The position numbers and the translations under genes were made by a program. This document shows positions 16,037-39,163 of a stretch of DNA of 64,000 nucleotides, piece after piece. Where the stretch lies: contig OX031063.1 in the NCBI GenBank assembly GCA_943736015.1, positions 35,494,172-35,558,171 of the forward strand, in the 5' to 3' direction. This DNA comes from Tridacna crocea (lineage: Eukaryota > Mollusca > Bivalvia > Cardiida > Cardiidae). Numbering within the stretch: position 1 is the first letter of the stretch; the number at the start of each line of letters is the position of its first letter. Below the pieces are notes generated by a model. The model ran no database searches. It was not told the origin of the DNA and worked only from the letters and a program-made list of their open reading frames with translations.

Positions 16037-16133
16037 ATTTAAACATATTTTATTCGACAGAATTACAATATACATGTACATGAACAATACAATTACATTA
16101 GATTGACAAAGAATAATCCTGCAGAAATGGATT

Positions 16134-16161
16134 GGAACGAAAGCAAAGCTTATATAGTTCC
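16134..16161 (-). promoter_or_regulatory. Putative LINE 3' UTR recognition hairpin
   Basis: On the sense strand GGAAC-TATAT-AAGC-TTT-GCTT-TC-GTTCC, a two-part stem about 100 nt from the 3' end. The related LINE at 39082-39114 has GGGAC/GTCCC in the same place, so pairing is kept while bases change. Such 3' hairpins are commonly what a LINE reverse transcriptase binds (known for the class; inferred here). Confidence 0.65.
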
Positions 16162-16500
16162 TTTCCAATTTCCGGTCATTGCATGTATAAGGTATGATAT
16201 TTTAAGTTTAAGAAAACAGAGCAGTGGGAGAAAAAAAAATATAGAGAAAGTGGTGGTGTGCAAACAGGAGTGGAGTGTTTGACCTTTTGGTGAAGAATTC
16301 ATATAATATGAGAGGCCATAAGTAGAGACAATAAAAGCATTACAACCTGACTGTCACTACTACGTAAGTGTTTACTTGTACAGTTTATAAAGACGAAGAT
16401 AAAAATGATACACCACGAGTGTCCCCTGCCAGTTTCCGCAGCAGAATATTATATTGTCCCCTGGAAACAGAGCAAGACAAAGAAACCAAGAGACAACAAA

Positions 16501-18762
16501 CTAAAGAGCAAATCTTCCACTTGCACGGATATAATTATGCACTGCTGCAAATACTGTTTCATTATCATGCAGGCTAAGATTCTCATCCCCATATAAGATG
16601 ACACGAAGGGAGACTCTTACAGTATCATTAATATTAGAATACAAAATATTTCTTAGGTCATTATAATTTGGACATTTTAGAAAATAGTGTTCAGTTGTTT
16701 CAACTGATCCGCATCTACAAAGTGACGATTGTACCAAGTTTTTCATGTATAGATGATGATTAAGAGAACTACATCTATTACGCAATCTAGCATGGATAAT
16801 CTGAATTTTTCTTTCGCCGAAGCAATACAGTGGTCTTGGCGTGGGTTTATCAAGGTTTAAATGATATTTAAAAGATGATAGTGATACTGCGTTCTTAATC
16901 TCATCCGGTAAGGAATTCCAATCATAAATTACAGACGGTAAAAATGAACTGTTATACAAGCTAGTTCTACACGCAATGGTTCTTAAATTATTAGGTCTAC
17001 GCAGATTGTAAGTTGTTGAATTACCAATAGTTGGAGGGACGAGAACATTAAGATAATTTGGAGAGAGTCCATTTACCATTTTATAGAAGTGAATCAACTT
17101 ATGTTTACGCCTTCTTTCACTTAAGGTTTCCCAACCAGATTCCTGAATAAGATCAGCAATAGAAACTAGTTTAGTGCAGCCTGTAACTATACGTGCAGCT
17201 TCATTTTGAACTTTGTCTAGCTGATCCTTTAACCCCTGCGAAAGATTGTCCCATATGACATCGCCATACTCCAAAATAGGCCTTATAAAAGAAAAATAAA
17301 TGGTCTGAAGTGACCGTCGGTCGAGTCGTATTTTCAGATACCGCATAACCCCAATTCTTTTCCATGCTTTTTCAATTAATTTATTGATATGGATGTCCCA
17401 AGATCCGTCATTAGAAAGGAAAAAACCTAAGTGTTTGTGACTCGTAACTGAAGGAATTTCAATATTCGACATAAATAGACTTGGATGATCTGGCTTAATA
17501 CGTTTGCGGGATATAACCAGCGACTCGGACTTTGCAGGGTTAAACTTAACCAGCCACTTTTGTGCCCAATCTGTAATTTTATCGATGTCAGATTGTAAAA
17601 TACTTCCTACATCAGTCGGATCGCCTACAGTCATTGACAAGCTTGTGTCGTCTGCAAAAAGATTGATATTTGCCTGAATATCATCAACTATATCATTTAT
17701 GTAAATTAAGAATAGTAAAGGTCCTAGAATGGATCCTTGCGGGACTCCAGCCTGCACATGACACAAAGATGAAACTCCCCCTGGTAAGACAACTCTCTGG
17801 AAGCGATTCGAAAGGTAATTGGAAAACCAAGATAGCAATTTACCATGAATCCCGGCCCGATTCAACTTAAAGAGTAAGCCTTTATGCCAAACTTTGTCAA
17901 ACGCTTTACTTATGTCAAAAAACACAGCTCTAAATTCAAGCCCGTCGTCCAAAGCTTTGCATATTTCATTATAAAGACCAGTTACTTGATTAACTGTAGA
18001 ATCACCAGGCATAAAACCGGACTGAAAGGGTGTAAAATAATTGATGTCTTTCAGATGGTTATAAACATGCTTGAATATAATGCGTTCGAATACTTTTTCG
18101 ATACTATTCAATAAAGAAACGGGTCTGTAGTTTGATGGAAGAGAAGGGTCACCGGCTTTAAATATTGGACATACATTGGATATTTTCCATGAAGATGGAA
18201 CTGTATTACTATTTAATGAGTAATTGAACAAATCACATAGATGAGGTGCTATCTGTCCAGCTACTTCAATAAGAATCCTATTATTAATACCGTCAGGCCC
18301 TGAGGCTTTCCCAAGTCTTAGTGATTTCAAAACATCCAGTACTTCAAACGGCATAATATTAATTGCATCTAAAGAGGTTTGAGACAGTGGGTAATTTGCT
18401 TCCGGAAGAGTACTTAAAGAATCATCTATACGTGATTGATTTGCAAAATAAGAGTTAAGTACGTTAGCTTTCTCATTGTCGTCAATTACCATTGAATCGC
18501 AAGAAAGATCAAAGAGAGGAGGGATTGACGATGAAGAACTTGAAGACATAAGTGACTTTATAGTTTTCCACCAATCACGTGGAGATAGTGTACCAGATTT
18601 TAATTTTGAGGATAACAGATCGTAGTAATTTGCTTTAGTTTGACGAATTAATGATATTACTTCATTTCTAACGGATTTAAATTTTATCCAGTGACTAGTT
18701 TTATTTGATACCTTAGCTTTTTTATACAATCTCTTACGATAACGAATTTTCCTTTTAATAAA
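16501..18762 (-). CDS. LINE ORF2 C-terminal part: reverse transcriptase
   Basis: About 753 codons open from the truncation point to TAG at 16501-16503. Residue numbers below count from the TTG codon at 18729, which is not a real start; the frame simply enters from the truncated end. Upstream linker with tryptophan-rich RDWWKTIKSL (51-60); reverse transcriptase from about 125 (LRLGKASGPDGINN 137-150, NYRPVSLLN 200-208); motif A FFDISKAFDKVWH with the catalytic Asp at 272; GVPQGSILGPLLF (328-340); catalytic FADD at 358-361. A C-terminal C671-x-C673..H681..C686 cluster resembles a zinc-binding tail. Best placed in the Jockey/CR1 group. It cannot be autonomous because the apurinic endonuclease domain is absent. 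The frame has no internal stop or frameshift. Confidence 0.93.
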   Translation of the reverse strand, partial: FIKRKIRYRKRLYKKAKVSNKTSHWIKFKSVRNEVISLIRQTKANYYDLLSSKLKSGTLSPRDWWKTIKSLMSSSSSSSIPPLFDLSCDSMVIDDNEKANVLNSYFANQSRIDDSLSTLPEANYPLSQTSLDAINIMPFEVLDVLKSLRLGKASGPDGINNRILIEVAGQIAPHLCDLFNYSLNSNTVPSSWKISNVCPIFKAGDPSLPSNYRPVSLLNSIEKVFERIIFKHVYNHLKDINYFTPFQSGFMPGDSTVNQVTGLYNEICKALDDGLEFRAVFFDISKAFDKVWHKGLLFKLNRAGIHGKLLSWFSNYLSNRFQRVVLPGGVSSLCHVQAGVPQGSILGPLLFLIYINDIVDDIQANINLFADDTSLSMTVGDPTDVGSILQSDIDKITDWAQKWLVKFNPAKSESLVISRKRIKPDHPSLFMSNIEIPSVTSHKHLGFFLSNDGSWDIHINKLIEKAWKRIGVMRYLKIRLDRRSLQTIYFSFIRPILEYGDVIWDNLSQGLKDQLDKVQNEAARIVTGCTKLVSIADLIQESGWETLSERRRKHKLIHFYKMVNGLSPNYLNVLVPPTIGNSTTYNLRRPNNLRTIACRTSLYNSSFLPSVIYDWNSLPDEIKNAVSLSSFKYHLNLDKPTPRPLYCFGERKIQIIHARLRNRCSSLNHHLYMKNLVQSSLCRCGSVETTEHYFLKCPNYNDLRNILYSNINDTVRVSLRVILYGDENLSLHDNETVFAAVHNYIRASGRFAL

Positions 18763-18774
18763 ACCTACATCTTA
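18763..18774. repeat. LINE target-site duplication, 5' copy
   Basis: ACCTACATCTTA, matching 16025-16036. Confidence 0.85.
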
Positions 18775-19384
18775 CATTCCTTCATCGGAAGTACTCGTGT
18801 TACTGTTTAGAAAGTAGTTCCATAAAAAAAAAACAGAGAAAACACCATTCAAAACTTCTATCCCAATTTTCTAAATACATTTCTGTTGATAAACAGCTTG
18901 TACATTCATTCTTTAGCGTATACTGTAAATTCCGTTGGCAGTTTTCACCGACAGATTGATAGATGTAAATAACTTCTCAGTGATTGTTGATGTTGCTAAT
19001 CGTGAATAACAGTATTTTAATACGGAAACCTCCTAGAAAAGGCCGAGGTTGGATGTGATTACGGAATGAGCCGAGTTCTGACGAGTGAGACACATCATCA
19101 CTCATAATGCGCATGTGTAAGAGTGTCACCATTAGACAAATGGCTCAAGTTTCACTAGATGTGCAAAAGCATTATCAACAAGGCATACGCTTTGTTTTAC
19201 GACGATAACTGCCTTCAGTTTCCCAGAAATATTTGTTGTGTGACTGTTGACAAATTATCACAGAAGATATTTATAAGCATTAAAATACTGGTCTCTGGGA
19301 AAAAATGTTTACTACATGTTTGTGTTGCACCATGCCAAGCAAGTTGTTGCATAATATGAATTCATTTCGCATGGTTGCCGAATA
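18775..19384. other. Unassigned AT-rich DNA
   Basis: No gene or recognised repeat; one A9 run near 18820. Confidence 0.5.
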
Positions 19385-19397
19385 AATAATGAGGTAG

Positions 19398-19510
19398 AAT
19401 GGCTCTTTCTCACGCAGAAAAAATTACTCACAGCAAAAAAGTTTCGACTCAGGTTAGCCTGCACGTACTGCGCAGTCTCACCCAAGTCGTTATTTTTTTG
19501 CAGATTCATT
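19398..19510. repeat. Family G hairpin, diverged
   Basis: AAAAGTTTCGACTCAGGTTAGCCTGCACG..TACTGCGCAGTCTCACCC..TTTTTTTGCAGATTCATTTG. Pairing is partial. Confidence 0.65.
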
Positions 19511-19549
19511 TGACCACCTTTCAAACAGCAAGACTTAATTACGTCGATC

Positions 19550-19763
19550 TTAACCCTTTACTCCATAGATACTCGTTTCTACGCATTGCTTGTAGGAGCC
19601 TTTGGAAAACATTGTGGCAAAAGGTGAAATTGCTCGTGACGAGCAATTTCACCTTTTGTCACAATGTTTTCTATGCTATCAAAAGGTGTCCTATACACAT
19701 CCTGGCTGTTATTTAGGGTTAAGTAGAGATACCATAGAAATGCCTTATGGGGTAAAGGGTTAA
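19550..19763 (+). mobile_element. Family B MITE with paired arm changes
   Basis: Bounded by TTAA (19550-19553, 19760-19763); begins AACCCTTTACTCCATAGATA. The hairpin reads GTGGCAAAAGGTGAAATTGC on the left and the matching GCAATTTCACCTTTTGTCAC on the right, with apex TCGTGACGA. Relative to the usual arms, two positions have changed on both sides so that pairing is retained. Confidence 0.85.
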
Positions 19764-19849
19764 AATCTCGGTATTTTTCTCCTATGCCTTGAAGCAACGT
19801 TCTAAAAGTGGGGAATATATCTAGGAGAATTGCTTGATCCTGTTGAGAA

Positions 19850-19998
19850 TTTCAACTCTTAGCCCACTATGGGCTACTTAATCTTTTGACTGTGTGACTG
19901 TCTGCAAAATCTTTTGCAGACAATGTACATCAAGATCCGACTGCAGTCGGATCTTGATTTTCATTGTCTGACGCACGTATTTTCAGCGATAGACGCTG
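19850..19998. repeat. Family E MITE, variant
   Basis: Two nested hairpins: CAAAATCTTTTGCAGACAATG and ACATCAAGATCCGACTGCAG / CTGCAGTCGGATCTTGAT with no loop. The shared AAGATC.GACTGCA core identifies the family. Confidence 0.7.
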
Positions 19999-20148
19999 TG
20001 ACATCGAAATAAATGGCTTTCAAAAAACGCTTGAAAATGCTTCATCCATCCCAGAATAATAAAATTTTCCTTGGTCGATCTTTGTACACTTATGAAAGCA
20101 TATATTGGTGCATCGCCTGTATGTATTACGGAATAGTGAAATTTTCAA

Positions 20149-20240
20149 CACCGTTACTATATATAGAACAGCGGCAACTGCTTCTATGCTGTATATGGAA
20201 TAAAGAGGGAGTCACCAATGTGCTATTTATAGTAACGGTG
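20149..20240. repeat. 92-bp inverted-repeat element
   Basis: Ends CACCGTTACTATATATAG and CTATTTATAGTAACGGTG pair at 17 of 18 bases around a 56-bp interior that is not itself a hairpin. Could be a very short TIR element. Confidence 0.65.
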
Positions 20241-20680
20241 TCCGATGAAAAAGATTCTTCTTTAATCCCTTGATCGCTCAATGAAAAATTCTTTATCCCG
20301 TAATAGACCAATGGAATTTCAGAAGCCTGAGCTCAAATCTTTACGCATTTACATGCGTACTTTATCAAACATACTCTGTCATACAATCCAATGTTTCAAC
20401 GGCCCCCATTGAAAATGCCTTTAAGACACTGGTAACCAGCTCTGTGTTTCCCAACATTTCTGTGTCAAATTCCATAGTTAAAGCTACATTCAGGTTTGTT
20501 TTTTCTCTTTTAGATGCATGTAACTAGGACAAGTCCAAAGTCTATATGGTAAAGAAAACTTTACGGGTAAAATAAGTCTATTTCTGGAATAATTCTGCTT
20601 GGGTGTTTCTAAATAATCAGACGAGATTCCTGTCCCGTCCCACTTTATACAGGCGCTTTAGCCGCATTTTATTTTGTTTT

Positions 20681-20946
20681 CTGTTTCTTCTTGTTGGTAT
20701 TATATGGCAAATAATGGTGAAACGATAATATTCGTACTTCGACTATTAGTTTAGTTTAAACATATTTATTATACATCGATTGAGAAACAAGGTCTTATAC
20801 AACTTATACTAATCTGTTTCTTCTTGTTGGTATTATATGGCAAATAATGGTGAAACGATAATATTCGTACTTCGACTATTAGTTTAGTTTAAACATATTT
20901 ATTATACATCGATTGAGAAACAAGGTCTTATACAGCTTATACTAAT
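20681..20946. repeat. 133-bp tandem duplication with SINE tail
   Basis: Two units, 20681-20813 and 20814-20946, with a single difference near the end (ACAACTT versus ACAGCTT). Each unit is about 68 bp of flanking DNA plus about 65 bp of the SINE tail that ends at about 20881. The near-identity means a recent event after SINE insertion. Confidence 0.9.
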
Positions 20947-21096
20947 CTCTCTCGATTCTGCCTCCTGGGTACTACACCAGTACTCTCACCGAATTGGCCA
21001 GTGAAAAATTCGGAAGTTGACACACGCTTCCGGGTATCGAACTCGGGACCTCATAGTTACGAGGCCGACACTTTGCCTCACAACCACGGACGCCAC
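20881..21096 (-). mobile_element. tRNA-derived SINE with LINE-type 3' tail
   Basis: On the minus strand the head has an A-box-like GTGGTTGTGAGGCAAAG and a B box GAGTTCGATACCC (about 21030-21095), indicating a tRNA-derived pol III promoter. The tail (20882-20953) ends TAATAAATATGTTTAAACTA, like the LINE 3' ends at 16037 and 39163. Upstream of that it has TATAAGCTGTATAAGACCTT..CAATCGATG, aligning with TATAAGCTCTTATCAGCTTT..CAATCCATG of the LINE at 39090. I infer it uses that LINE's machinery. Confidence 0.75.
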
Positions 21097-21436
21097 TACT
21101 ATTGCTACCATTTCTTCTACTACTTCATCATTTTCATAATTACCTCGCCCTCCAAATCCTTCTCCCCATTCTCCTCCTCATTATTATCCGTAATCGTCAT
21201 CAATAGCTTTCTACGTACGTGGCCATAATTAAAAGATATGTGTGACTGTCTATAAAATGCGTTTGCACTTTTTAAAAGACTTGACACATGAACGTTATTG
21301 GGTTTGGCATGATTATCAAATCTTAACCGTGCCATACTAGTATATTATCAAGATATTAAAACATTTTAAAGCGAAAATACTGATAATTCTATCATGGTAT
21401 AAATTTCAATATAATTGATGTTTTGCCAGGTTTTGA

Positions 21437-21652
21437 TCCGGTGTAATGCAGAAAAATTATTTTCCCCTATAAAATGACCCATGGGTCATTTCATTACGTA
21501 GAGAAATTGCCCGGGTCATTATTCTAGGTAGAGAAATAACCCTCTAGGCTCATTTCTCTGCGTAGAATCATGACCCGGGTCATTCCTCTACGTACTGAAA
21601 TAACCCATGGGTCATTTTGTAGGGAAGGGTAATTTCTCTGCATTACGCCGGC
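21437..21652. mobile_element. Foldback element L
   Basis: A near-palindrome of about 215 bp with ends CCGGTGTAATGCAGAAAAA and TTTCTCTGCATTACGCCGG. Each arm contains several copies of a GGGTCATTTCTCTACGTAGA-like unit, alternating orientation, with ACCCATGGGTCATTT and GACCCGGGTCATT mini-palindromes. Centre at about 21544. No ORF. Confidence 0.85.
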
Positions 21653-21689
21653 TTAATCATGGTAAAATCTTTGCTTATCAGTATTAACC

Positions 21690-21795
21690 CATAGGTTTTC
21701 TAGGCGAGACTGGGAGACCTTTTACGGACAGCGTGAATCAAAATCAGTTTGCACATAACGTGCAGTCGGATATTAGATCTACACTCCATGCTAGG
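21690..21795. repeat. Family E remnant
   Basis: TACGGACAGCGTGAATCAAAATCAGTTTGCAC..GTGCAGTCGGATATTAGATC, one degraded hairpin. Confidence 0.6.
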
Positions 21796-21987
21796 AGATA
21801 TATTTTCCCCCTAAAATATCAATGAAAAAGCAAAATGTTTTTTTTTTATCGGCTTAAAAAATTCCTGTAACAGCTTCAGGAATGGTTAAATTGGAACATG
21901 GAGAAACAGATGACGAGAAGATGTTTCTCTTGGTGGCAGGATCTTTGTTTCAGATTGTGACTAAAGATAAGATGCATTTTAAGCAAT

Positions 21988-22105
21988 AACCCTTAAAGCG
22001 CCATAGGTGAAAACAATGTTTTTTTCAGACTGCATAGATCAAGAGCAGACTATAGGGAACGTGCAGTCTGATCTTGATCTATGCCACCCACTAATTTAGT
22101 CCAGC
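21988..22105. repeat. Family E remnant
   Basis: AACCCTTAAAGCGCCATAGG, then CATAGATCAAGAGCAGACT..AACGTGCAGTCTGATCTTGATCTATG. Confidence 0.7.
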
Positions 22106-22195
22106 TTGTAAGACACAGGATTTTTTCTTAGTTAGCTCTGTCGTAAGTTCAGAATGAGTTGTATTTTCAGCAGTCGAAATAGAACGACTTTATCG

Positions 22196-22278
22196 TCGGT
22201 TTGCATCCAAAAACTCGTAACTACAGCTTGTAACAACTTGCGGCTGTAGTTACGAAGTTTTGGAAGCAAACCGACTTT
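22196..22278. repeat. Family D hairpin
   Basis: GTCGGTTTGCATCC..AACTCGTAACTACAGCTTG paired with CGGCTGTAGTTACGAAGTTTT..GCAAACCGAC. Confidence 0.88.
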
Positions 22279-22615
22279 ATGTCCATGTATTTTGTTCTGA
22301 AAGATGAAAATTGAAGAATAAGTTTTGGCCGTTGGTATAAAGACGCAATTGTCAAATAAGTTTTACAAATCTTTTACTCCTCAGTCCGTACTGGAAAAAA
22401 AAAAAAACTGAATGGGAAAGCATTGGCCTAAGATCAGTCTGACCTGACGACTAATCTTGGTCTAACCCGTCAATAAAAAATATATTTAGTTTCTAATAGC
22501 AAACAAGGGTTAGCTGTTTTTGTTTTACATAGGGTTTAATAGTACTCAATAGTATCTTAGTTACATCTCGCTTAAAGATTACCCATCTTTACTTTCCCCA
22601 CAGGTTCTTTTATCA

Positions 22616-22677
22616 GCAGTGTTGGACCGAACTATCAACCCCATAGTTAGGTCAACCCCATAGTTCGGTCCAACACA
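22616..22677. repeat. Hairpin with TGTTGGACC ends
   Basis: GTGTTGGACCGAACTAT paired with ATAGTTCGGTCCAACAC around a short interior. Lies just left of element M, whose ends also carry TGTTGG. Confidence 0.75.
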
Positions 22678-22713
22678 GTATGTCACACGCCATTGGTTGC
22701 TTTTTCACATTAC

Positions 22714-23562
22714 CGGGCTGTTGGATCATATTTGTAACAAATCATATATGTAACACCTGTTACATATATGATCACATATGTAACATGTGTTACATATATG
22801 ACTCGGAAATCAAGCATAAATGTAACATATTTTGTGACGAATATGATCGATGCCGGTTTCTGATGTGACATAAAATCACATATGTCACAGGTCAATTTTG
22901 ATTTAAAAACAGTACAAAAGAATGCATATTTACATCTGAAACACATTTGTAGCAGGTTTTTATTCACCAGATGGGCCAATATCTTGATACTGATTTGTTG
23001 TGTCACTTTGTCCATCGTCGTCATCGGCGGTGACGTCGACGTCACTCTTTCGCGTCCGCTCCATATTTCCTCAACTCTTTAAAGGATATTCATGAATATA
23101 ATGTCCGGTATCGTGGCTGCTCTCTGTTTATATATATAAACATATATATATATGGGCCACAACGTGAGAAAATGTACCTTCGGACAATTGGTGAGTATTT
23201 GATAAACAACGTCTTTATTTGAACAGATTATTCAGGTTATTTTGTGAGTTATGACCAATTTACTATATGAACCCTACAAACGTCATTTACCTGAAAAATG
23301 AAGTCAAAGTTGCGTAATGCATTTCTGCGTGTTAGTAGAACCTACAAAACTCGATGCATTTGCTTAAAACTCTTTAAGCACTGATCAAACCCCGTATTGT
23401 AATACAAATAGACAACTAAACCTGTTACATATATGCTTCTCATGTCAACCCCCATTTCGGACAAACACATTTGTAACACACTTTATCTGTTACGAATGTG
23501 ATCATGTACGTAACAAATGTGTTACATATATGATTTGTTACAAATATGATCCAACACCGGGC
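22714..23562. mobile_element. TIR element M with TAACA-rich subterminal repeats
   Basis: About 850 bp. The left end GTTGGATCATATTTGTAACA..ATCATATATGTAACAC and the right end are perfect inverted repeats over 37 bp. Both subterminal zones hold further TATATGTAACA/TGTTACATATA units. No transposase frame. A 14-bp palindrome TGACGTCGACGTCA (23031-23044) lies inside. Superfamily not assigned; target duplication unclear. Confidence 0.8.
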
Positions 23563-24097
23563 CCACACAATCGTGGGGACAATGTTTTTAGCGGCGAGAG
23601 AGGAATGAATGCTGTTGCAATGACTATTATGAATCTTTGGAAAGAAATCACTCGAGCAAGTAGATCGAAACAGAGGTCCAATGATGTCAATGACTGAAAT
23701 ACCGGCGACGTTTGCAGGGAAGCTAGGAAAGGAGTTTTACACGACATAATCCGAACAAATCCGAATCAGGGAAATAACCGCAACAATCACTGTGATAGAA
23801 ATGTATAATGCTCGCGTGCGTAAATGTGACAGACCTAATTATACGCTATGATAATATCGGGGTTTTCGTTAACATTGCGTCCTTAACTTTTGCTATCTAG
23901 TCAGACTGGCGTCACAAAGGGACAGTTCAATTTCTACATTGAAATAAATTAGCTTTTGCTTCTCTTTTTACTGTGTTGTTTTTGTACCCAGTCTGCCTTA
24001 ACTGTCTCAGTGCCAAATTTAGAAAGTCAGTCTCTTTCGAAAGCTGAAAAAAACAATCCACTGACATTAGAAAAAAGGTTCTAATCTGAGAGAATTG
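23563..24097. other. Unassigned DNA
   Basis: No reading frame or repeat family recognised. Confidence 0.45.
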
Positions 24098-24215
24098 ACA
24101 ACAAAAGCGAACGTTATAGATCCAAGATCAGACTGCACGTTCTGTGCAGTCTGATCTTGATCTATTATGTTCGCAGAAGCTTCTGTTTTCGCGTAGGGCG
24201 CTGAAAGGGTTTGGT
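24098..24215. repeat. Family E MITE hairpin
   Basis: Perfect GATCCAAGATCAGACTGCAC..TTC..GTGCAGTCTGATCTTGATC hairpin with TATGTTCGCAGAAGCTTCTG and a GCGCTGAAAGGGTTT right end. Confidence 0.8.
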
Positions 24216-24581
24216 GCATTCACAAAACAGTTGACGAAGCACAATAGATGCATTCCGGATGTCAGGGATGATGCTCAAAGCACCTTTCATGTGGAGGAAG
24301 AAAAACAGTTTTAATTATAAGTTTCTTTCTAAATCGCCTTTCGCAATTCATGCAGTGTAATTTTTTTCATGCTTTATTTCTTTCGAAATCCAGATCAAAT
24401 TAGAAATGGAGAACTCGTTTGATTCCAGGAAAGACTTGAGAACAAATAAGGTGATAGTTAAAGTCCGAATTCAGACAAAGCACATCATGCAGATGTTAAA
24501 ATATATTTGACTTTGAATCATACCGAATAATAGTATGAAAATTACTGTGAAGATGACTATTTGCCATTGTGTGTTCGGTCT

Positions 24582-25066
24582 CATCTTCGCAAGCCAAGGC
24601 TGAGGATCCACTACGCTACTCCACCCTTGGCGGATCGAGCTTGATTTCGACATTCCCCCGATACGCATTTTCATCGGTTGTAGCTAGCTAGCTTTAACTG
24701 CATCAAAGCAAATCGCTCGTAGCATTACATCTTTGATAAAAATAGAACAAGGTCGTGACCTTTCGGATAAAAAATAGAAGATGTACAGAAAGTTTCAGTA
24801 TGACCAATCAATTTTCAGAGGTTTTAGGCTATATCCCAGCACCTGATCATGGAATGTCGAAGTATGTTTGTAGTTATTGCTTCATGTTGAATTATTGTAT
24901 TCGTAAGCGGCTTTTAAAACGATATTTCGTTGGCTATAAGAAATATAATGTAAAAGGAAATAATAAGCAGCATCCATTAGGGGGCGTATCGGGGGAATCT
25001 GGAAATAGGGCTCGATCAGCCAAGGTAAGATCCACGTAGTGATCGTAACCTTGGCTTGCGAAGATG
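24582..25066. mobile_element. TIR element with ~85-bp imperfect arms
   Basis: The left arm (CATCTTCGCAAGCCAAGG..GGATCGAGC..ATTCCCCCGATACGC, 24582-24667) is the inverse of the right arm (GCGTATCGGGGGAATC..GCTCGATC..CCTTGGCTTGCGAAGATG, 24986-25066). The roughly 320-bp interior is AT-rich and has no recognisable protein. A 94-codon plus-strand frame (24755-25039) starts inside and ends in the right arm; nothing supports it as a gene. Confidence 0.75.
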
Positions 25067-25755: not shown

Positions 25756-25806
25756 TGAGACCAGACACTTTGCAAGGGTAAAACTTTGCAGTATAATAAA
25801 TTCGTA

Positions 25807-27894: not shown

Positions 27895-28020
27895 GTAAGT
27901 CAATGACCCATGCCTCTATGGAAAGGAAATTAAATGCATTATCAAAAGGATTAGACCTTTGTCAGCCTGCGCACTTCGCGCAGGCTGACATAGGTCTAAT
28001 CCTTTTGCTATTTGTAACTT
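27895..28020. repeat. Family G hairpin
   Basis: AAAAGGATTAGACCTTTGTCAGCCTGCGC / mirrored to GCGCAGGCTGACATAGG..CCTTTTGCT. Perfect GCGCACTTCGCGC apex. The flanks read AATGCATTATC and CTTGTCTGCATGTG. Confidence 0.85.
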
Positions 28021-29993: not shown

Positions 29994-30223
29994 TTATCCC
30001 TTTACTCCATAGATACTCATTTTGACGCATCAACCACATACAGCTTTTGAAAACATTGTGGGAAAAGGAGAAATTGCTCGTAACGAGCAATTTCTCCTTT
30101 TCCCAAAATGTTTTTCACTCAATCAGAAAATTGTTCCCCCATTTGTCCATAGTTTTGACATCATATGTTTATTTGCTGCTGAATTGGAAGAGCCTAAAAT
30201 TGGCATATGAGGTAAAGGGTTAT
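29994..30223 (+). mobile_element. Family B MITE, full length
   Basis: CCCTTTACTCCATAGATACTC to GGCATATGAGGTAAAGGG, flanked on both sides by TTAT rather than TTAA. The hairpin is GAAAACATTGTGGGAAAAGG..apex CTCGTAACGAG, with one arm mismatch. Confidence 0.85.
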
Positions 30224-30414
30224 ACCGTAATCTGCAAAACTTGAACAAAAAGGGATCGCTTTACACGCAGAAGGATCCATCACAATTGCCACAGAATGTA
30301 ACAGTTAATTGTCGAGTGCTCTCGGATCAATCTCCCCTAATGAGTTATTGTGTAAATACCATCCGATTGTTCCTGTAGCATTACTGTTATTTCCCAGCAA
30401 ACAAACGAAAGCTT

Positions 30415-30535
30415 TACCCTTTTTTTAACCTGTCATACAAAACCGCGAATTCTTTTTGCAGACAGTGTGCATCAAGGCAAGCCTACACATACGTGCTTGG
30501 CTGATCTTGATCTACACTGTTTGTCTTTTTATCAT
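30415..30535. repeat. Family E MITE, diverged
   Basis: TACCCTTTTTTTAACC, CAGACAGTGTGCATCAAGGC..GCCT..GGCTGATCTTGATCTACACTG. Confidence 0.65.
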
Positions 30536-31129
30536 TGGTTTCAGTCACACAATCTCTATCAAATGCCTAGAAACTGAGAAGAAGCCGATTATAGTTTATG
30601 ATAGATGTTAGATGTTCGGCTCTGGACTGGTGAACAGAACGTGTTCATTAGAGGCTTTTGTAATCATGGTTTTATATTAGTCTCTTGAAAATAGTGACCT
30701 TGTTGCCCCTTTAGGGAGATTGCACTATGGTGCTGAAATACGTTGGCACAGGGGAACACTTGATAACTCTGATTCTGATTTTTGTGTATTTAATTCTCGT
30801 AACCATTTTTCTAAAATTTACATTATTTTCTTGGACGAGACGGCTGCTTCTTCGGTGTAAAAGCATTTATCTTTTTACATTTTGATTGGATCAAACATTT
30901 ATTTGAACAAATAATCCATTTAAATTTCGTAAAGAGCATGTAAGAATAATTTTATGATACAAAAGATCGATAAAATGTTGTTTCACACCGCTTTCAACAT
31001 TATTTTCTTCATGTCGTGATGACAGCTCAATTATTTGAATAAGAAAAATAGTTTAGAATGCAGTCCAGAGTGTTTGGTGAATACGGCGCCTAGTCTCTTC
31101 GAGTTTAAACTCTTAGTCTTGATAGGACG
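30536..31129. other. Unassigned AT-rich DNA
   Basis: No recognised gene or repeat. Confidence 0.45.
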
Positions 31130-31287
31130 ACAACAATCTGGATTTGTCCATGCTGAAAACATTGTAGGAAAGGAGAAAATTACCATTTCTTCTTTTTCCA
31201 CATCGTTTTCTACTTTTCTACCGATAATGGCTACAAACGCTTTCTGTTTGGACATGTGTAAAAATTTGTGGTCTTATTAAGAGTTAA
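31130..31287 (+). repeat. Family A MITE, diverged
   Basis: CTGAAAACATTGTAGGAAAGGAGAAAATTACC paired weakly with ATTTCTTCTTTTTCCACATCG; right flank CTACAAACGCTTTCTGTTTGGACA and AAGAGTTAA end. Confidence 0.7.
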
Positions 31288-31305
31288 AGTATTTTATGAG
31301 TAGAA

Positions 31306-31497
31306 TGGAGATCCAGATAAGAGGGAGTGGTAGTATTTTCTAAATCCATTATTTCTCTTGAAACCCCATGTCGCCTGTACTCATTAGACTCGTCTCGATG
31401 AGACGATTCTAATGAGTACCTACAACATGCGGGTTTAGTGGAGAATGACTAATATTTTTAGTTTGAAAATCAAAATCACTCCCTCTGTCTTGACCTC
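31306..31497. mobile_element. Foldback element J
   Basis: Outer ends GGAGATCCAGATAAGAGGGAGTG and CACTCCCTCTGTCTTGACCTC. Inner hairpin GTACTCATTAGA.TCGTCTC / GAGACGATTCTAATGAGTAC with flanking AACCCCATGT / ACATGCGGGTT. A second copy is at 58551-58692. Confidence 0.82.
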
Positions 31498-31499
31498 TT

Positions 31500-32479
31500 G
31501 TATATCAAAAGTGATAAACAGTTTCGGATAGTTTAAACAGACCAAGATATTGCGTTTTGAACTGGCCATATACTTCACAGAATAGCAGATATTTGAGATT
31601 TTAGATCACACTGAACATCCTCTGCAGTCTGATTTTGTTCTTTATCATCTTCAAAGGCACACAAAGTCGTGCCATTTAGCTTAGCCTCTGAAATGGAATG
31701 AATCGTGAGTTTTTAGATTTCAAAGGGATTAAAATTTGACCCTTTTCATATTTAGGCCAAATCCTTCCCTCTTAAGGCGTACTTTGATGCTTCTTGTGAA
31801 AATATTTTATACACATACAGATATGGCAGGTGCACTCCTAAAGTTTTCTCAATTTTCATAACATCGCTCGTAAGATTTTTACCTATCTGCAAAATACTTT
31901 ATTTACGAAGTCATGGTATTGATTTGTGCGAAAAGTTGACATGGGGTCATGATTCGAATTTTTTGGAGTATTAAGGTGACACCAGGGATCCTCTGTTAGT
32001 TACTCTTATACTGTGTTTATTGCCCTCCATAAAAATTATATCGAAATAACAATGGGTCAAAGTTTTATGAAGTGTTTTTATTGGGAGGAGAAGCCATTGG
32101 TTAAACTGCTTTTTAAATCGGCTTAAATGTTGACAAAGATGCTTTAAATGTGTATGTGTATTTTATGGTTTCATAACAAGTACCGGCAGATCACGGTTGC
32201 TGAATTGCAATTCACTCTCTAGTTGCTTGGTAATTTCTAAGAAGAACTAATTCTTCAACAATAAGGTCAGAAGGTACAGGAAGTGCACTCTGAACTTGTA
32301 TCTTAACCATTCGCTTGTTAAATCAAGCCTTTAAGATAAAAAAGCCCTTGCTAAGATTTGGTGGAATCGTATTTCGGCCCTTGACAGACGTCGGGTTTCA
32401 AGATTTCTGTACACTGAGAGAGTTAGTTGAGGACTTTTGCCCCTGGGTACATTTCTTTCTCATCTTAGACATTTTATTA
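31500..32479. other. Unassigned DNA
   Basis: One faint family E echo at about 31570-31690 (TTTTAGATCACACTGAAC..TCTGCAGTCTGATTTTG). Nothing else recognised. Confidence 0.45.
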
Positions 32480-33275
32480 GACTATGCCATGCGTCGTTCT
32501 GGATATTTATAACAGAATGCTATACTTCTTTCTAAACATTTTTACAATTCCAATCCATATTCTTAACATTGCGTTTTTAACAGAATGCCTTGTAACTTTC
32601 TGGACATATATATAAGAAACTGACAAGTGTCTTTCTGGAAGTTTTTACAGCATGACAGGCGTCTTTTTGACCATCTCCTAAAGTGAATGCCATGCGTCTT
32701 TTTATGACATTTTTAAATAATGCTCTGCGTCTTTCTGTACATCTTTACATAAAGCTTTGCGGTTTTTTTTTGACATTTTTAGATAATGCTATGCGTCTTT
32801 TAGGACAATTTTAGATAATGTTATGCGTCTTTTTATGGACTTTTTTTTAGATAATGTTACGCTTCTTTATAGACATTTCCTTAGAAAATGACATACGTCT
32901 TTCTGGACATTGTAACTGAATGCCCTGCGTGTTTCTGGACACTTTTTAGAGAATAACAGACGTCTTTTTGGACATTTTGCTCAGAATGCTAGGCGTCTTC
33001 CTGGACATAATTTCACAGAATGCCATGAGTCTTTCTGAAATTATTATTTCTTAAATAATGCCATGAGTCTTTCTGAACTTTTTCTCAGAATGCTATGCGT
33101 CATTTGGACAATTCTTTTTAAGAATGCCAGACGTCTTTCTGACATTTTTAACAGAATGCTATACGTACTTCTGGACATTTTTACAGAATACCATGCGTTT
33201 TTTCTGGGCATTTTCTTTTAATAGAATGCCATGCGTATTACTGGGCATGTTTTTTACTGAATATCTTGCGTCGTT
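32480..33275. repeat. Diverged ~33-40-bp minisatellite
   Basis: About twenty degenerate copies of GAATGCCATGCGTCTTTCTG GACATTTTTAA-like units. Copies differ in length and by many substitutions, so the array is old. No coding function proposed. Confidence 0.88.
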
Positions 33276-33534
33276 CTGCAAGCAGATACGCTTCCATTAA
33301 TGCCGTAATACTGATGGAAAACAAGTTGTTAATCGCAGACAAAGCTTCTATTGTCTTAGACATCGAAAATATTCTGAGTTCTTTTCTTGGACATGAAAAC
33401 TGATAAACTTTTCCTCGTTAAACTGATTTGACCATTTAAATCGGGTAGACTTTTTGAATTTTTTCTTATGTATTAGTGAACGAGTATTGAACATTTTTCA
33501 AGATTATGGTCCTTATTTTACGAAGATGGTCTCC

Positions 33535-33662
33535 ACGTGTACCGGTGCTCAGATACGAGTCATGCTCTACAAAAAGGAGGTTTGATGCATTTACAAAAGG
33601 TTTAGACCCAGATCAGCCCATGTCGTCCGGGTCGAAGACCCGTCTTGCCGAGGCTACATTTC
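33535..33662. repeat. Family G remnant
   Basis: GAGTCATGCTCTACAAAAAGGAGG, GATGCATTTACAAAAGG and TTTAGACCCAGATCAGCCCATG correspond to the left half of family G. Confidence 0.65.
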
Positions 33663-34312
33663 GCCAAATACAACTTTTCGTCTAAGCAACACTATGTCGA
33701 ATTTCGTCGATTTGTGTTAAATTTCGAACAAAGCACAAAGTAAAAAAAAAATCTAGAATTTTGATATGCCACAAGAATAACTGCATAAAATTGCACCGTA
33801 AATCCATCACTGTAACATTTTAATTCGATCCGATTGTCTCGAATTGCTGGGCTTGATTGTGTTTGAAGAGATAAGCTAATACAGATAACAACATACAGAT
33901 AACAACAATACAATATTCAGCCAGACGTTTTGTGAAAATAAAAATATTTTCAACAACACAGAAGTTATGTTAATTTTGTTTGATCATTCCATGTTCTACA
34001 TGAAGAATTACAGATTTTTGTTAATCTAGTAGCAATCGTTATGAGAAATCCCCTTTAAATAGTCTAAGTAGATAGAGGATATAAAAAAAAAAATGCACAC
34101 GGGCAGATAATGTTAGGCATACTTAATAGTTCTTAGTAGTTAAAAAAGAAAGAATCGATTAACAAAAATACCTTTCAACCAAACTTTGTACTTACGATAA
34201 AATTTGGGACATTTTCGGAGAAATGTTGTTTTCCGGACTAACGTCGCCTCGGCACGATGGTTCTTCGACGTAACTGTCTTTGACGAGATGGTTTTCGACG
34301 AAATGTCGTGCA
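33643..34312. repeat. Possible TIR element
   Basis: TTGCCGAGGCTACATTTCGCC..ACAACTTTTC on the left is roughly inverse to GAAATGTTGTTTTCCGG..ACGTCGCCTCGGCAC on the right. Further ATTTCGTCGA / TTCGACGAAAT motifs occur at both ends. Boundaries uncertain, no ORF. Confidence 0.45.
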
Positions 34313-34315
34313 ACG

Positions 34316-34505
34316 TTAGAATTTAGGACCTATCGTGTAAATTATGACAGACTTTTTTAAATTTAGGACGTGTTTCTATATTGATGATTAGACTTGGGTT
34401 GTAGAACCAGTCTTGGAATGTAGGATCAGTGTTAGAATTTAAGACCAGTCTTCGTCTATAGGATCAGTCATGGAATTTAGTCTCAAAATTTAGGGTCAGA
34501 ACTGA
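34316..34505. repeat. Degenerate short tandem repeat
   Basis: Repeated AGAATTTAGGACCAGTCTT-like 20-25 bp units, much diverged. Confidence 0.7.
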
Positions 34506-34904
34506 ATCTCGGAAACAGTGATGACTGAGGTCTCAAGCTTATATTGCTTAACGTAGACTACAGCGTTGCGTTCTTGACCTCCATCCAGACTTTCTGACTT
34601 TCAGGGTGGTCGATAAGACATGCCACGAAGGCAACAGTCGAAACGGAAATACGATAACAGCAGGGTGAACCCTGGTCAAACAGACGTTTATTTACATTGG
34701 AATGATAGTTTGTTTTTGACCTGCAATAGCCATTTTCAAAGTATTGTAATAATTGGTCCCGGGGAAACGATTTGATTGCAGCCATTTAGAGCACACAAAT
34801 TGGTCCTTGGGTCTGGGCTAAAAGGTCATATATTGATAATAATGTAAACATGGACAATTGATTAACTCTAATAATGAAGAAGGCGATTGACTACATGTGG
34901 TTTT
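34506..34904. other. Unassigned DNA
   Basis: No recognised feature. Confidence 0.45.
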
Positions 34905-34978
34905 TGTGGGAGGAATTTAGATCAAGATTAGATTGAGAAAAACGTGCAATCCGATCTTAGATCTACATTGTTTAATAC
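34905..34978. repeat. Family E remnant
   Basis: TTTAGATCAAGATTAGATTGAG..ACGTGCAATCCGATCTTAGATC. Confidence 0.6.
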
Positions 34979-35116
34979 TTTGGAAGATACCGTGGACAAA
35001 AAGAACGTTATTTTATCATGGCCCTTGGTCGGAGAAGCGAATTTCGCAAAGGTGTAAGTACAGGTCAAACTGTTACCATATGGCTAAAATGTCCATTCTG
35101 TGGAGAAAGGCTAACA

Positions 35117-35342
35117 TGGCTTAACCCTTCAATCCTGTTTTAACAACCCCTGTGAAAGAAGCTTTTGAAAATATTGTGGGGGAAAAAAAAAAAGAAAATG
35201 ATGGTAACCTGTATTTTCTTCTTTTTCCACAATGTTTTATACCTATTCAAAATGCCGTTGTCTGAGCCATACTTTATTTTTTGTCTGCAATTGCTTTTAA
35301 TAAGAACAAGTCAATTTTTTGCCGTTAAGAAAAAGAATTACA
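35117..35342 (+). repeat. Family A MITE, diverged
   Basis: TTAACCCTTCAATCCTGTTTTAA, GAAAGAAGCTTTTGAAAATATTG, weak hairpin, TTTTTTGTCTGCAATTGCTTTTAA. Confidence 0.72.
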
Positions 35343-35654
35343 AGGTTTTTCAGCTGACTAAAAAGATTTGACTGCTACTTGACTTGATAGTTGCTTAAAT
35401 ACGGTTGCTTAGAAACGTAAGACCCAGCAAATGACGTGACTAAAACGGTTATTTTAAGTAGAAGGATTTGTACGTTACCCCAGAGAACAAAATAAAATTA
35501 ACCCATGGCGGTGTAAAAATTCTGAACAAGAAGAGTTCGTGTTTTATACTGCATTTGCTAACCGACTCAAATGCAGATCTTGAAAGCATTGAAAATAAGT
35601 ACGTGCCTAACAGCTGGAATACAAAATTGTTTCAATGATCTCAGTCTAGATATG

Positions 35655-35760
35655 GCCAAAGCCCTGTAAGAGGGCAAACGGTAAATGTCGATCTGTGTCA
35701 TTCTGCGCAGAGCACAGTGCGCGCAGGCTTATATAGATCGAGTTATTTGCTTTCGGTAAC
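35655..35760. repeat. Hairpin related to families E/G
   Basis: GTCGATCTGTGTCATTCTGCGCAG..GTGCGCGCAGG..ATATAGATCGA; imperfect arms. Confidence 0.5.
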
Positions 35761-36234
35761 AATATGTCGGAAGATACAATATAACACTAATATTTTCCCC
35801 TCTAGGGATGTAAGGGTATATCTTTAAGATCCAGGCTTACTTTGAGATTGGTTTTGTCTTGTATCTTGTAATATTCGCCATAACAAAACTAACAGGCTTC
35901 TTCGAGCATTGCCCATGGGGGCAGCCGATGGCGACTATTGATAAAAGCAAATCAATCAAACAGTCGAATCGCTGTATCTATAAGATATACTGCATGTGTG
36001 GGTGGTCTCACTAAACCCGAACGACCTGAACTGTGCGATAAGTTGCGCAAATGACGTTAGAATCCGGTGCTAAATCATCAAAAGGCCACTTAAAGGACAT
36101 TGTGTCCGTTTTGTAACGACTAACAATGCCCAGTAATTGTGCGCGGGTCATTATAGAGTAAAATAATATCCATAAATACGCACAATCGATGCTTTAACGC
36201 ATTGCAGAACTACAATGTTAGACTGGTGAATTAT

Positions 36235-36700
36235 TAAAGCATTTGAAAACTACAAACTAACCATGGTTTAAATGAATATGGCCCTGAAAGAGTAAAAAGC
36301 ATTGCGGGAAAAGGAGAAAATACTGATTACCAGCATTTTCTCCATTTCCACACATTGTTTTCGAAAGCTCAGAGTCGTTGAAACAAGAGATAAATCGGCA
36401 AAAAGTTAATCGATGGCAAAGGGTATAAACCAAACAGAACAGATTTTTTTTTTAAATGTGACATTTCTAATTTAGAGAACACGCGACCACGTCAATCCTA
36501 CGTTGGCGTTTGATTATTTACAAACTAAAATCCAATCAGCCGCGCCCATGTCGCTCAGATGGGATGCAGAAGGGTGTATGTTGGGGGGGTTTAAGTTAGA
36601 ATCTTAGTTTTCGGGGAACCAGATCCTAGAAGATTGGTGAAGATAATTGCTGCAATATTTGTTCAATCCGTTCATTTTGTTGTTACTTAACTCTTTGCAG
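36235..36700. repeat. Segmental repeat unit 1: A MITE plus 3' flank
   Basis: A reverse-type A element (GAGTAAAAAGCATTGCGGGAAAAGG hairpin, ending GGCAAAGGGTATAA at about 36427) followed by GAACACGCGACCACG (36478-36492) and ..CCGCGCCCATGTCGCTCAGATG. The same order recurs about 495 bp downstream. Confidence 0.65.
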
Positions 36701-37145
36701 GACGATAGAATTTCAAACATGACCAATTTGAAAAATCCGTGCAGACGACAAATTTAATTGTGGTTCAAATGTTACAACTTGTCACCGAAAGAGTAGCATG
36801 TGGAAACAGAAGACGATGCTGATTACCAGCGTTTTCTACTTTCACCACACAATTTTAGATGCATTCTTTCTCAGGGATATCAAAACACTGGATTGTTTGG
36901 TACACGTTAATCCATTACAAAAGATGCAAACCAAATATATCTGTTTTCTAAAATATGGTACACGCACTACAGAACACGCGACCACGACAATCCGTTCTTG
37001 ACAATTAAAAACCGATTGGCCGCGCCTCTGTGGCTCAGATGTGACACAAGCAGTTGCTCGTAAATTCGACTGTCTTCTGTGAAAGAACTAGTTTCGAGAA
37101 CAATGATTAAGGTCATGATTCATTGAATATGTTCATTTTTCTGCT
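36690..37145. repeat. Segmental repeat unit 2
   Basis: A degraded A element (TTAACTCTTTGCAGGACGATAG to ATTGTTTGGTACACGTTAA) followed by GAACACGCGACCACGACAAT and CCGCGCCTCTGTGGCTCAGATG. This is the diverged partner of 36235-36700. Confidence 0.65.
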
Positions 37146-37239
37146 ATGATATATTTATATTTGTATTTGTATTTGCTTTAAACATGTTAAATAAAGTATA
37201 TGTATATGAATATATCATCCTGGCTTTACGTTAATTGTA

Positions 37240-37440
37240 CCAACGAAAAAAGAAACTTGTTCAAACTAATGGCATTTGCAGTGGACAAATCAACTGTCGT
37301 TCGAATGGAGTAATATATCTAAGAAAAATAGAAAACATAGTGGGAATAAGAGAAAAAGCTGGTTACCAGCAGTTTCTCCTATTCTCACGATGTTTTCAAA
37401 ACAGGGAAAATGTGTGAAGGGATTTGGCGGCACCCCGATT
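37240..37440 (-). repeat. Family A MITE, diverged
   Basis: GCATTTGCAGTGGACAAATC, ATAGAAAACATAGTGGGAAT..AGCTGGTTACCAGC..ATTCTCACGATGTTTTCA. Hairpin largely paired. Confidence 0.72.
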
Positions 37441-37791
37441 AACGAAATTTGTTTTAGTATTTAGTACTTAGGATCATTTTGGTGGATGAAACATGATTAT
37501 GGCAATAAATTAAGCATTTCAGCATGAATTGGTATATTAGGTGTTGGCTCAAAGATGAAAGGTAGTTTGCAATGTATTTATTACGCTTTATCAAAATATT
37601 TGACGAGGATCATATTTTCAAAACATCCATCAAACAGTTTCTTTGGCATGCTTGGACACGAATAGATGGAATAAATAAACGAAATCTTAATAATTGAACA
37701 TACTTCATTCTGTTTTAAGCACTTTTTTTTTCATTTAAATTTGGAATGATCATAAAAATCTGAAATGCCCACCTTAATTGGGGCTAGTTAG
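37441..37791. other. Unassigned AT-rich DNA
   Basis: No recognised feature. Confidence 0.45.
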
Positions 37792-38136
37792 TTATTGTCT
37801 TATATCAAAATTTCTTTTAGAATAGCAACTATTACAAAAATCTGTCGTGTAGCTTTTATAAGGGTTAATTATATTCAGTAGAGAGGTGCAGTTTTGACAT
37901 TCAAATGATGGGATGGTCGTTTTGAAATCGGTACCCCGAATACAAGCATTTTTGTTACGTAAGATATGACGTAAATAAAATACAAATCGGTGAGTGCTAT
38001 TGATCATGTAACATTTCCACAAGTACTTGAGAAACTCTGGCCCAAAAGAGTGTACGAGGTCCATTAAAGAAATATCATTAAATATCATTTCTTTATTTTT
38101 GTCTTTCTTCTGAAGTGATTTGCCAGCATTACTCAA
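37792..38136 (-). CDS. Unidentified ORF with paired CxxC motifs
   Basis: A 114-codon open frame outside any repeat I can recognise. The nominal first codon is TTG, an in-frame stop lies 18 bp upstream, and no ATG begins the frame, so it is at best an exon or a fragment. Visible features are a charged start, a hydrophobic/aromatic middle (FVFYLRHIL), and C-Q-N-C followed about 21 residues later by C-N-S-C, a spacing that could bind zinc. I do not recognise the family. It could be a piece of a transposon protein or chance; no clear splice sites were found. Confidence 0.25.
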   Translation of the reverse strand: MSNAGKSLQKKDKNKEMIFNDISLMDLVHSFGPEFLKYLWKCYMINSTHRFVFYLRHILRNKNACIRGTDFKTTIPSFECQNCTSLLNIINPYKSYTTDFCNSCYSKRNFDIRQ

Positions 38137-38264
38137 TTCAGTGATAAATCAATCTAAAAGTTTGGCAAGACTATTATAAACCTGCATAGTTCACTTTAAA
38201 CATCACTTACCCCAGCTGGGTTGCCCTTTACTAAACAATCATATCTCGTTTTACTACCTAAAGA

Positions 38265-38462
38265 TATCTGAATCCGTATTCCATTCTAAGAACATTTTTT
38301 AGGCTTATTATTCAGAATTTGTCAATGTGAAAGAAACAGGACCTCTAATTGGCTATACCAATTGGTTTAGCCAATCAGAAATTCTGTTACTTTCACAGTC
38401 AGAAAATTCTATAGATTAAGACAAAGAACGTTCTTAAGAATGGTTTGTGATTACGAACCCGC
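38265..38462. mobile_element. Family F foldback
   Basis: Arms pair from TCCATTCTAAGAACATTTTT to AAGAACGTTCTTAAGAATGG; centre CTAATTGGCTATACC / GGTTTAGCCAATCAG; TGAAAGAAACAG / CTGTTACTTTCA inside. Confidence 0.85.
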
Positions 38463-38621
38463 CGTTTACAAATATTGTAAAATGAGTGAAAGCAGGTAGC
38501 CAGGATAAACACCAGTTCATTTCAGTAACAACTCGGATAATTTGAACTGGATTTAATCATTCTTTGTATGCATGCTTAAACATGCATTTGTTTTTTTTAA
38601 AGAAATAGAGTAAAAACATTG

Positions 38622-38636
38622 TAAGCACTTACGAAA
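38622..38636. repeat. LINE-2w target-site duplication, left
   Basis: TAAGCACTTACGAAA, repeated at 39164-39179 with one inserted T. Confidence 0.75.
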
Positions 38637-38916
38637 TAATTGCAGTTCCCTAAAGCACCATCTGTACTTAAGAAATGTAGTTGACTCTCCTAACTGTGTA
38701 TGTGGTGCTATAGAGACAAATGCACACTATTTCTTTGAATGTCCACTTTATGAAACTATAAGAAATAAGTTTATTCGCTCCATATTGTATTATGAAATTA
38801 CTATAGACCTTCAAACACTCCTCTTTGGAAATGATTTTCTTACTTTTCAGGAAAATGAAGAAATCTTTTTGAAAGTTCAGTCGTATATAAGGGAAAGTAA
38901 GCGTTTTAACGAATGA
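38637..38916 (+). CDS. LINE ORF2 C-terminus, truncated
   Basis: Frame from about the truncation point to TGA at 38914-38916. It aligns with the last 92 residues of the LINE at 16501: CSSLKHHLYLRNVV for CSSLNHHLYMKNLV, then the C-V-C..ETNAHYFFECP cluster (CRC..ETTEHYFLKCP in the other), then a conserved SYIRESKRF end. Reverse transcriptase domain is absent. No internal stop. Not functional alone. Confidence 0.85.
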
Positions 38917-38940
38917 TTTTCAAAAAGGTCCACCTCTACT

Positions 38941-38972
<32 letters not shown>

Positions 38973-39081
38973 TCTCTTTTTGTCTCTCTTTCTCCAGCTT
39001 GCTCACCAATTTTTGTATGTATATGTTTTTTTTTCTCTCATTTTCTTTATTTCTGTCATGTGGATGTTGTTGCTTTGGAAA

Positions 39082-39114
39082 GGGACTCTATAAGCTCTTA
39101 TCAGCTTTCGTCCC
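39082..39114 (+). promoter_or_regulatory. Putative LINE 3' UTR recognition hairpin
   Basis: GGGAC-TCTAT-AAGC-TCTTATCA-GCTT-TC-GTCCC followed by AATCCAT. Compared with 16134-16161 the inner AAGC/GCTT stem is constant, the loop differs in length, and the outer stem has a compensatory A-T to G-C change. Confidence 0.65.
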
Positions 39115-39163
39115 AATCCATGTGTATGTTTATATATACAATAAAATATGTTTAAACTAAAAC

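Follow-up and report, generated by a model that had tools for sequence, protein, structure and literature searches.

We found that a 64,000-nt stretch of the Tridacna crocea genome (contig OX031063.1, positions 35,494,172 to 35,558,171; hereafter the window) holds two related long interspersed nuclear elements, LINE A and LINE B, and a short interspersed nuclear element (SINE) with related 3′ ends. We consider it very likely that LINEs of this clade end in a covarying three-stem hairpin which is bound by the LINE protein, and that the SINE, which has the same fold, is copied by LINEs of the clade. The fold is conserved between LINE families, LINE and SINE share a tail and terminal repeats, and target-site duplications are present.

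A first-pass annotation, made from the letters alone, had described hairpins GGAAC/GTTCC and GGGAC/GTCCC in the two LINEs, around a common AAGC/GCTT stem with differing loops. Position and folding confirmed both: the loop has 3 nt in LINE A and 8 nt in LINE B, and AAGC/GCTT is present in each. A covariance model of LINE-type hairpins scored them at 67.5 and 56.8 bits (both are members of the model). An Rfam scan of window positions 15900-39400 gave no family reaching its gathering score. A reverse transcriptase reading frame (RVT_1, E 6.4e-30) lies in LINE A, whose ends as first annotated are exactly abutted by a 12-bp duplication. The C-terminal reading frame of LINE B is 44% identical to LINE A over 107 aa. 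In the genome under study (1.05 Gb, 31 contigs, to which all genome-wide counts refer), the best-scored 40 matches of the LINE B tail, window copy included, had 93-100% identity. With up to 3 mismatches allowed, the 20-nt end of LINE B had 4 matches in the window, vs 0.06 expected.

Features of the window (UTR, untranslated region; RT, reverse transcriptase)
Feature	Position	Strand	Basis or remark
LINE A, 5′-truncated, one RT reading frame and 3′ UTR	16037..18762	-	RVT_1, target-site duplication
Target-site duplication of LINE A, ACCTACATCTTA	16025-16036, second copy 18763-18774		exact 12-bp repeat
LINE A three-stem hairpin, UUGGA-AA-GGAAC-UAUAU-AAGC-UUU-GCUU-UC-GUUCC-AA-UCCAU	16126..16170	-	folding, covariance model
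LINE A AT-rich end, AATAAAATATGTTTAAATTA	16035..16054	-	
SINE, decayed copy	20881..21096	-	tRNA-like head by motif only
SINE tail homologous to LINE hairpin, AUCGA-GA-GAGA..UCUC-AA-UCGAU, inner AAG/CUU	20908..20956	-	not the minimum-energy fold here
SINE terminal sequence, TAATAAATATGTTTAAACTA	20885..20904	-	
Second SINE tail copy, in tandem duplication including flank	20752..20815	-	133-bp period
LINE B, 5′-truncated, C-terminal coding end and 3′ UTR	38637..39163	+	
LINE B three-stem hairpin, middle stem GGGAC/GUCCC	39073..39122	+	folding, covariance model
LINE B AT-rich end, AATAAAATATGTTTAAACTA	39140..39159	+	

Folding of LINEs A, B, C and G revealed a further, lower stem outside the stem first annotated, in the arrangement GGA-(AA or GA)-middle stem-AA-UCC. 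The lower stem is GGA/UCC in most LINE families, GGG/CCC in family M and CGA/UCG in the SINE, where a C-to-G change is matched by G-to-C on the opposite arm. A 2x2 internal loop (GA or AA opposite AA or GA) separates it from a middle stem of ~5 bp that covaries freely. Above an asymmetric internal loop, the apical AAG/CUU stem is kept, with a terminal loop that varies between families from about 3 to 8 nt. The hairpin is followed by the AT-rich end and then by short CTAAA repeats. What the first-pass annotation called the outer stem is this middle stem, and its shared sequence CAATC-ATG is present; because folding shows the outermost stem, which had been missed, that sequence is better described as half of an internal loop plus the lower stem.

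LINE families were distinguished by their hairpin arms. The middle stem is GGAAC/GUUCC in families A and C, GGGAC/GUCCC in B and I, GGAAC or GAAAC/GUUUC in D, and AGAAC/GUUCU in E, F, G and K; family H pairs GGAAC with GUUUC, GUUCU (wobbles) or GUUCC. The SINE-like inner stem AAGTT/AACTT, sought together with ATCCAT, occurred at 91 places (control 10). The 20 that were fetched were mostly SINE copies, plus two LINE-like tails, M and N. Family M, with the hairpin GGG-AA-UGGCC-GAACCU-AAGUU...AACUU-GU-GGCCA-GA-CCC, had 41 matches and 470 first-look candidates, 20 of them fetched; in some copies the lower stem extends to seven pairs (AAAAGGG/CCCUUUU). Family N is one copy, L164. Reading frames were checked by tblastn with LINE A, six relatives being added as queries for part of the loci. 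LINE frames lie beside the tails of A, A′ (a variant of A), B, C, D, E and H2 and in mussel loci described below. No adjoining frame was found for families F, G, H1, I, K, M and N, which are therefore LINE-like by tail only. In three LINE copies (L047, L092, L145), 6 extra nt stand between the middle stem and TATAAG; the inserts replacing TA are TACCGGTA, TACATGTA and TACTAGTA, respectively, and every one is palindromic.

The same hairpin was found in a second bivalve. An alignment of LINE relatives, scanned against contigs of bacterial and archaeal genomes, yielded five loci. Two of these (L153, L154) are LINEs in a Bathymodiolus brooksi symbiont assembly, probably as host contamination, with frames ~42% identical to LINE A. 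Both end in a hairpin of the same architecture; the middle stems are GGAC/GUCC and AGACA/UGUCU, and the inner stem is AAGUU/AACUU. The match at L156 ends short of the C-terminus; identity is 26% at the other two loci, L155 and L157. Among the best 120 of 7722 relatives of the LINE A protein, the longest have ~1180 aa, and the few with a named organism are from Dreissena polymorpha and from assemblies of Candidatus Thiodiazotropha, probably with host sequence in them; this points to a bivalve as the most likely host. Window LINE A itself has the reverse transcriptase; the precomputed Pfam accessions PF03372 and PF14529, which we take to indicate an endonuclease, occur only on the full-length relatives, which carry a reverse transcriptase accession as well.

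To quantify covariation, family or subfamily consensus arms read by eye were used as units: 16 LINE-type units of the same genome, the mussel LINEs and the SINE, 19 in total. Units F, H3, K and N had one good copy each. Variant A′ (L048, L091) and decayed copies (L096, L098, L104, L109, L113, L114, L117, L118, L136, L138 and others) were left out. The 3′ arms were shuffled among units 4000 times as the null. In the 16 same-genome LINE-type units, 80/80 middle-stem pairs were canonical, vs a shuffled mean of 65.2, and 15 double changes were counted vs 3.8 shuffled (0/4000 for each). With the mussel LINEs and the SINE, 93/95 pairs were canonical (71.9 shuffled), the SINE keeping 4/5. The lower stem of all 19 units had 77/95 canonical pairs (69.3 shuffled) and 8 double changes (2.9 shuffled), each level occurring in 2/4000 shuffles.

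A MAFFT alignment of 24 LINE-type hairpins had 86.9% of cells paired (80.0 shuffled) and 27 double-changed cells (10.3 shuffled), with 0/500 shuffles for both. When the partner was slid by one column, pairing fell to 53% or 47%. RNAalifold, unaided, predicted ten pairs that include parts of all three stems, five of them with double changes. When the SINE was added, the rows of M, N, Bathymodiolus LINE Bb1 and the SINE were one column out of register; 79.7% of cells were paired (73.8 shuffled) and 30 were double-changed (15.9 shuffled), again with 0/500 each, and a slide of -1 nearly equalled the covariation score (0.233 vs 0.249). These findings support selection for structure at the hairpin, as first proposed: double compensatory changes separate families in all three stems, including the stem named in that proposal, and Bathymodiolus keeps the fold.

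Individual genomic copies were surveyed with a pattern in which only the apical stem and flanking AATCCAT were fixed and the middle stem was free on both arms. It matched 251 places, vs 0 in the reversed control. From 100 of these places 50 loci were fetched, 30 as loci and 20 mostly for unusual arms or loops. Further patterns required that the 3′ base of middle pair 1 not be C (20 places, 20/20 read), that of middle pair 2 not be C (26 places, 14 read), or a lower-stem base not be C (20 places, 20/20 read). The collected hairpins, including those of the window and of other loci, form 80 distinct rows, not a random sample; at the offset used, all five middle pairs were kept in 60 rows, four in 9, three in 8, and two or fewer in 3. 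Among the 20 places changed at pair 1, by our own reading of the hairpin table, 18 had a 3′ U, opposite which stood A in 13 and G in 2, with 3 unpaired. A double change of inner pair 4 with AATCC kept was found in 0 places (control 3), so there is no covariation at that pair among tails that have AAG, CTTTC and AATCC. The pair is U-A in families M and N, the mussel LINEs and the SINE.

The SINE had 3524 first-look candidates in the genome. Of 40 that were scored, those other than the window copy matched it at 85-87%. The 20 copies fetched were the best matches to the window query, and a consensus was made from 17 of them plus the window copy. Folded with the lower stem, the consensus tail fits the whole architecture (AUCGA-GA-GAGA...UCUC-AA-UCGAU), with inner stem AAGUU/AACUU. 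Cut out alone, the hairpin folds in a shifted middle-stem register close to the GAGAGA/TTTCTC of the first-pass annotation, which is thus an alternative register. A covariance model trained on LINE-type hairpins only, with the SINE excluded, detected the tail in 20/20 fetched copies at E <= 10: 14 copies scored 22.8 bits (E 0.01), two 22.2, and the others 18.3, 17.7, 13.5 and 13.0. Window positions 27944-28006, an inverted repeat, also matched this model on both strands (20.8 and 19.9 bits), a match that looks like chance.

Local alignment was performed with the SINE consensus tail without its AT-rich end, and 1000 dinucleotide shuffles served as the null. Scores were 105 for Bathymodiolus LINE Bb2, 97 for Bb1, 88 for M and N, 76 for B, 74 for D, 69 for C, 65 for I, 64 for G and 63 for H1; the best was reached by 0/1000 shuffles. 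The likeness is not limited to the terminal AT-rich 20 nt and extends through the hairpin. These scores support a 3′ tail that SINE and LINE share as homologs, not as identical sequence, beyond simple repeats. As judged by alignment, the SINE tail is nearer to M, N and the Bathymodiolus LINEs than to LINEs A and B. The tail sharing proposed in the first-pass annotation was upheld in this general form; its specific pairing of the SINE with the two window LINEs was not supported. The decayed window SINE copy aligns best to LINE B (91), which may account for that choice.

A search with the SINE-tail pattern CGATT..AAG..CTTATANNBB gave 187 places (control 44), and 100 of the 187 were assessed. Twelve were fetched and proved to be 10 SINE copies or pieces and 2 LINE-type hairpins of family H (L129, L130); the other 88 were judged from the matched letters alone. 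When the SINE body was excluded at four positions, 9 places matched. By matched letters, these have nine different five-letter upstreams, so no recurring LINE with the SINE tail was indicated.

Both SINE and LINE B end in CTAAA repeats of variable number: at least one full unit was present in 18/19 SINE ends and 13/26 LINE B ends parsed. Flanks of at least 9 nt were shared in 11/19 parsed SINE copies (20 fetched), as in target-site duplications, and the other 8 had none that long; L071, L081 and L084 have identical flanks and should be counted once. Distance to the SINE consensus had a median of 1.9% (18 copies), with 12.6% for the window copy. Because the fetched copies were best matches to the query, these distances give no unbiased age. 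In selected copies of LINE 3′ ends, the median distance was 0.0% for B (33 copies) and 2.2% for C (12 copies). Low-divergence SINE and LINE copies thus coexist. The tRNA-like head of the SINE stands by motif: by eye, GAGTTCGATACC resembles what we take to be a B box. ARAGORN found no tRNA in the window SINE, the consensus head or the 20 copies, and Rfam none at E <= 1 in six SINE copies (window copy not among them).

Other observations concern how SINE and LINE pieces are arranged. A tandem duplication with a period of 133 bp (window 20683-20948, limits by eye) comprises the SINE tail and its 3′ flank, and its two tails differ by one base. Nested insertions were seen at L022, where a LINE B end adjoins a SINE tail, and at L200, where a SINE head begins inside a family M tail. 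At L001, L004, L005 and L006, unrelated sequence precedes the exact 20-nt SINE end near 1501-1520, and at two of them (L005, L006) a further hairpin-like stretch (CCCCC..GGGGG, TAATAA) stands immediately before that end. These four may be tiny truncated insertions or other elements sharing that end.

Several results weigh against our interpretation. Without the SINE, the lower stem was weaker (72/90 canonical vs 66.3 shuffled, 21/4000). The LINE-type MAFFT alignment had 7 covarying pairs vs 5.5 shuffled and 15 pair types vs 14.4, not beyond shuffling; with the SINE, both fell below it (6 vs 7.3 and 13 vs 16.4). The lower stem is incomplete in families H, I and K, and in variant A′ middle pair 5 is broken, leaving 4/5 pairs. 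By tblastn, no LINE frame was found in the 2.5 kb upstream of tails from M (two), G (two), N, H1, I and K (one each), or in the 1.5 kb available for family F. By minimum energy, the window SINE tail does not fold into this hairpin, even when the hairpin is taken alone. The decayed copy scored 17.0 bits (E 0.19, filters off), which is chance level, and was unreported with default filters, and the inverted repeat mentioned above scores near the best SINE copies. The SINE consensus aligned to family E at chance level (38, p 0.385) and weakly to A (48, p 0.049). No LINE with the exact tail of the SINE was found in the pattern searches made. Finally, the shuffling nulls ignore shared ancestry and the tree of the families.

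Most likely, by analogy with known pairs, the hairpin is part of a tail of the stringent SINE/LINE type, which the LINE protein would recognise. The LINE RNA would be bound at the hairpin as target-primed reverse transcription starts, and the hairpin would be the start site, as in zebrafish L2. The SINE, ending in the same fold and terminal repeats, would then be copied by a LINE of this clade. From the same analogy we infer binding by the LINE protein and mobilisation of the SINE. Terminal loops differ in length and sequence; what stays constant is AAG/CUU, the internal loops and, roughly, the spacing. This comparison suggests that the protein may read shape. A bolder version, which we hold only tentatively and think rather doubtful, is that it reads the fold (internal loops, AAG/CUU, spacing) and not base identity, and that several LINE families copy one SINE. 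If so, a SINE whose middle stem is unlike any LINE tail found would track shape, not sequence.

It is unlikely, in our judgement, that the hairpin is not what the reverse transcriptase reads but serves the LINE RNA in another step (its 3′ end formation, export or stability), and is kept in the SINE for that step too. Such a role would fit its position upstream of an AATAAA-like motif in both elements; however, a SINE with a Pol III type head (the head itself was not confirmed) would not need a hairpin for Pol II 3′ end formation, and the tail continues into element-specific CTAAA repeats, as stringent-type tails do. We give even less credit to an independent SINE hairpin, with the AT-rich end alone shared and the hairpin likeness convergent or due to chance. 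Alignment outside the AT-rich end gave the best score of 105, UAAGUUGUNAGAACUUGU is common to the SINE and family M, and stems and internal loops succeed one another in the same order, although the SINE middle stem has few bases in common with that of any LINE and single SINE copies reach a model E-value of 0.01 at best. It is highly improbable that the compensatory changes merely hitch-hiked as a handful of old families diverged, without selection on pairing: relatedness was left out of the statistics and several families have identical arms, but the 11 distinct arm pairs alone gave 53/55 canonical pairs vs 39.5 shuffled (0/4000).

Recognition of the hairpin by the LINE protein would provide a testable recognition element for a large LINE clade, tied to a SINE with thousands of candidate copies. 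With their differing stems and loops, the natural families lend themselves to asking whether the LINE protein reads letters or shape.

We recognised no published account of this tail in the literature searched, which did not cover subscription journals, and claim no priority. In zebrafish L2, as described in PMC4176376, the ORF2 protein binds the 3′ stem-loop via a region between endonuclease and reverse transcriptase, and both stem and loop are required. The eel UnaL2 LINE with its SINE and zebrafish ZfL2-1 and ZfL2-2 (PMC4176376) resemble the Tridacna elements in a 3′ stem-loop shared by LINE and SINE, terminal repeats, and endonuclease plus reverse transcriptase. Recognition there lies in the loop, whereas Tridacna hairpins vary the loop (~3 to 8 nt) and keep AAG/CUU and the internal loops. 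Plant L1-clade LINE/SINE tails (Ohshima, PMC3747384) are alike in a putative hairpin, compensatory stem changes and conserved bases beside the stem and in the loop; they differ in sequence, hosts and clade (L1). Human L1 and Alu (PMC5135761) have a similar predicted 3′ stem-loop with a bulge but no shared tail sequence, and neither "compensatory" nor "covariation" appears in that source's main text. A catalogue of bivalve LINEs and SINEs (PMC10294476) covers the same element types, with LINE donors known for three of eight SINE families; its main text does not contain the word stem-loop. The principle of SINE-LINE tail sharing is known, and the members described here appear to be new.

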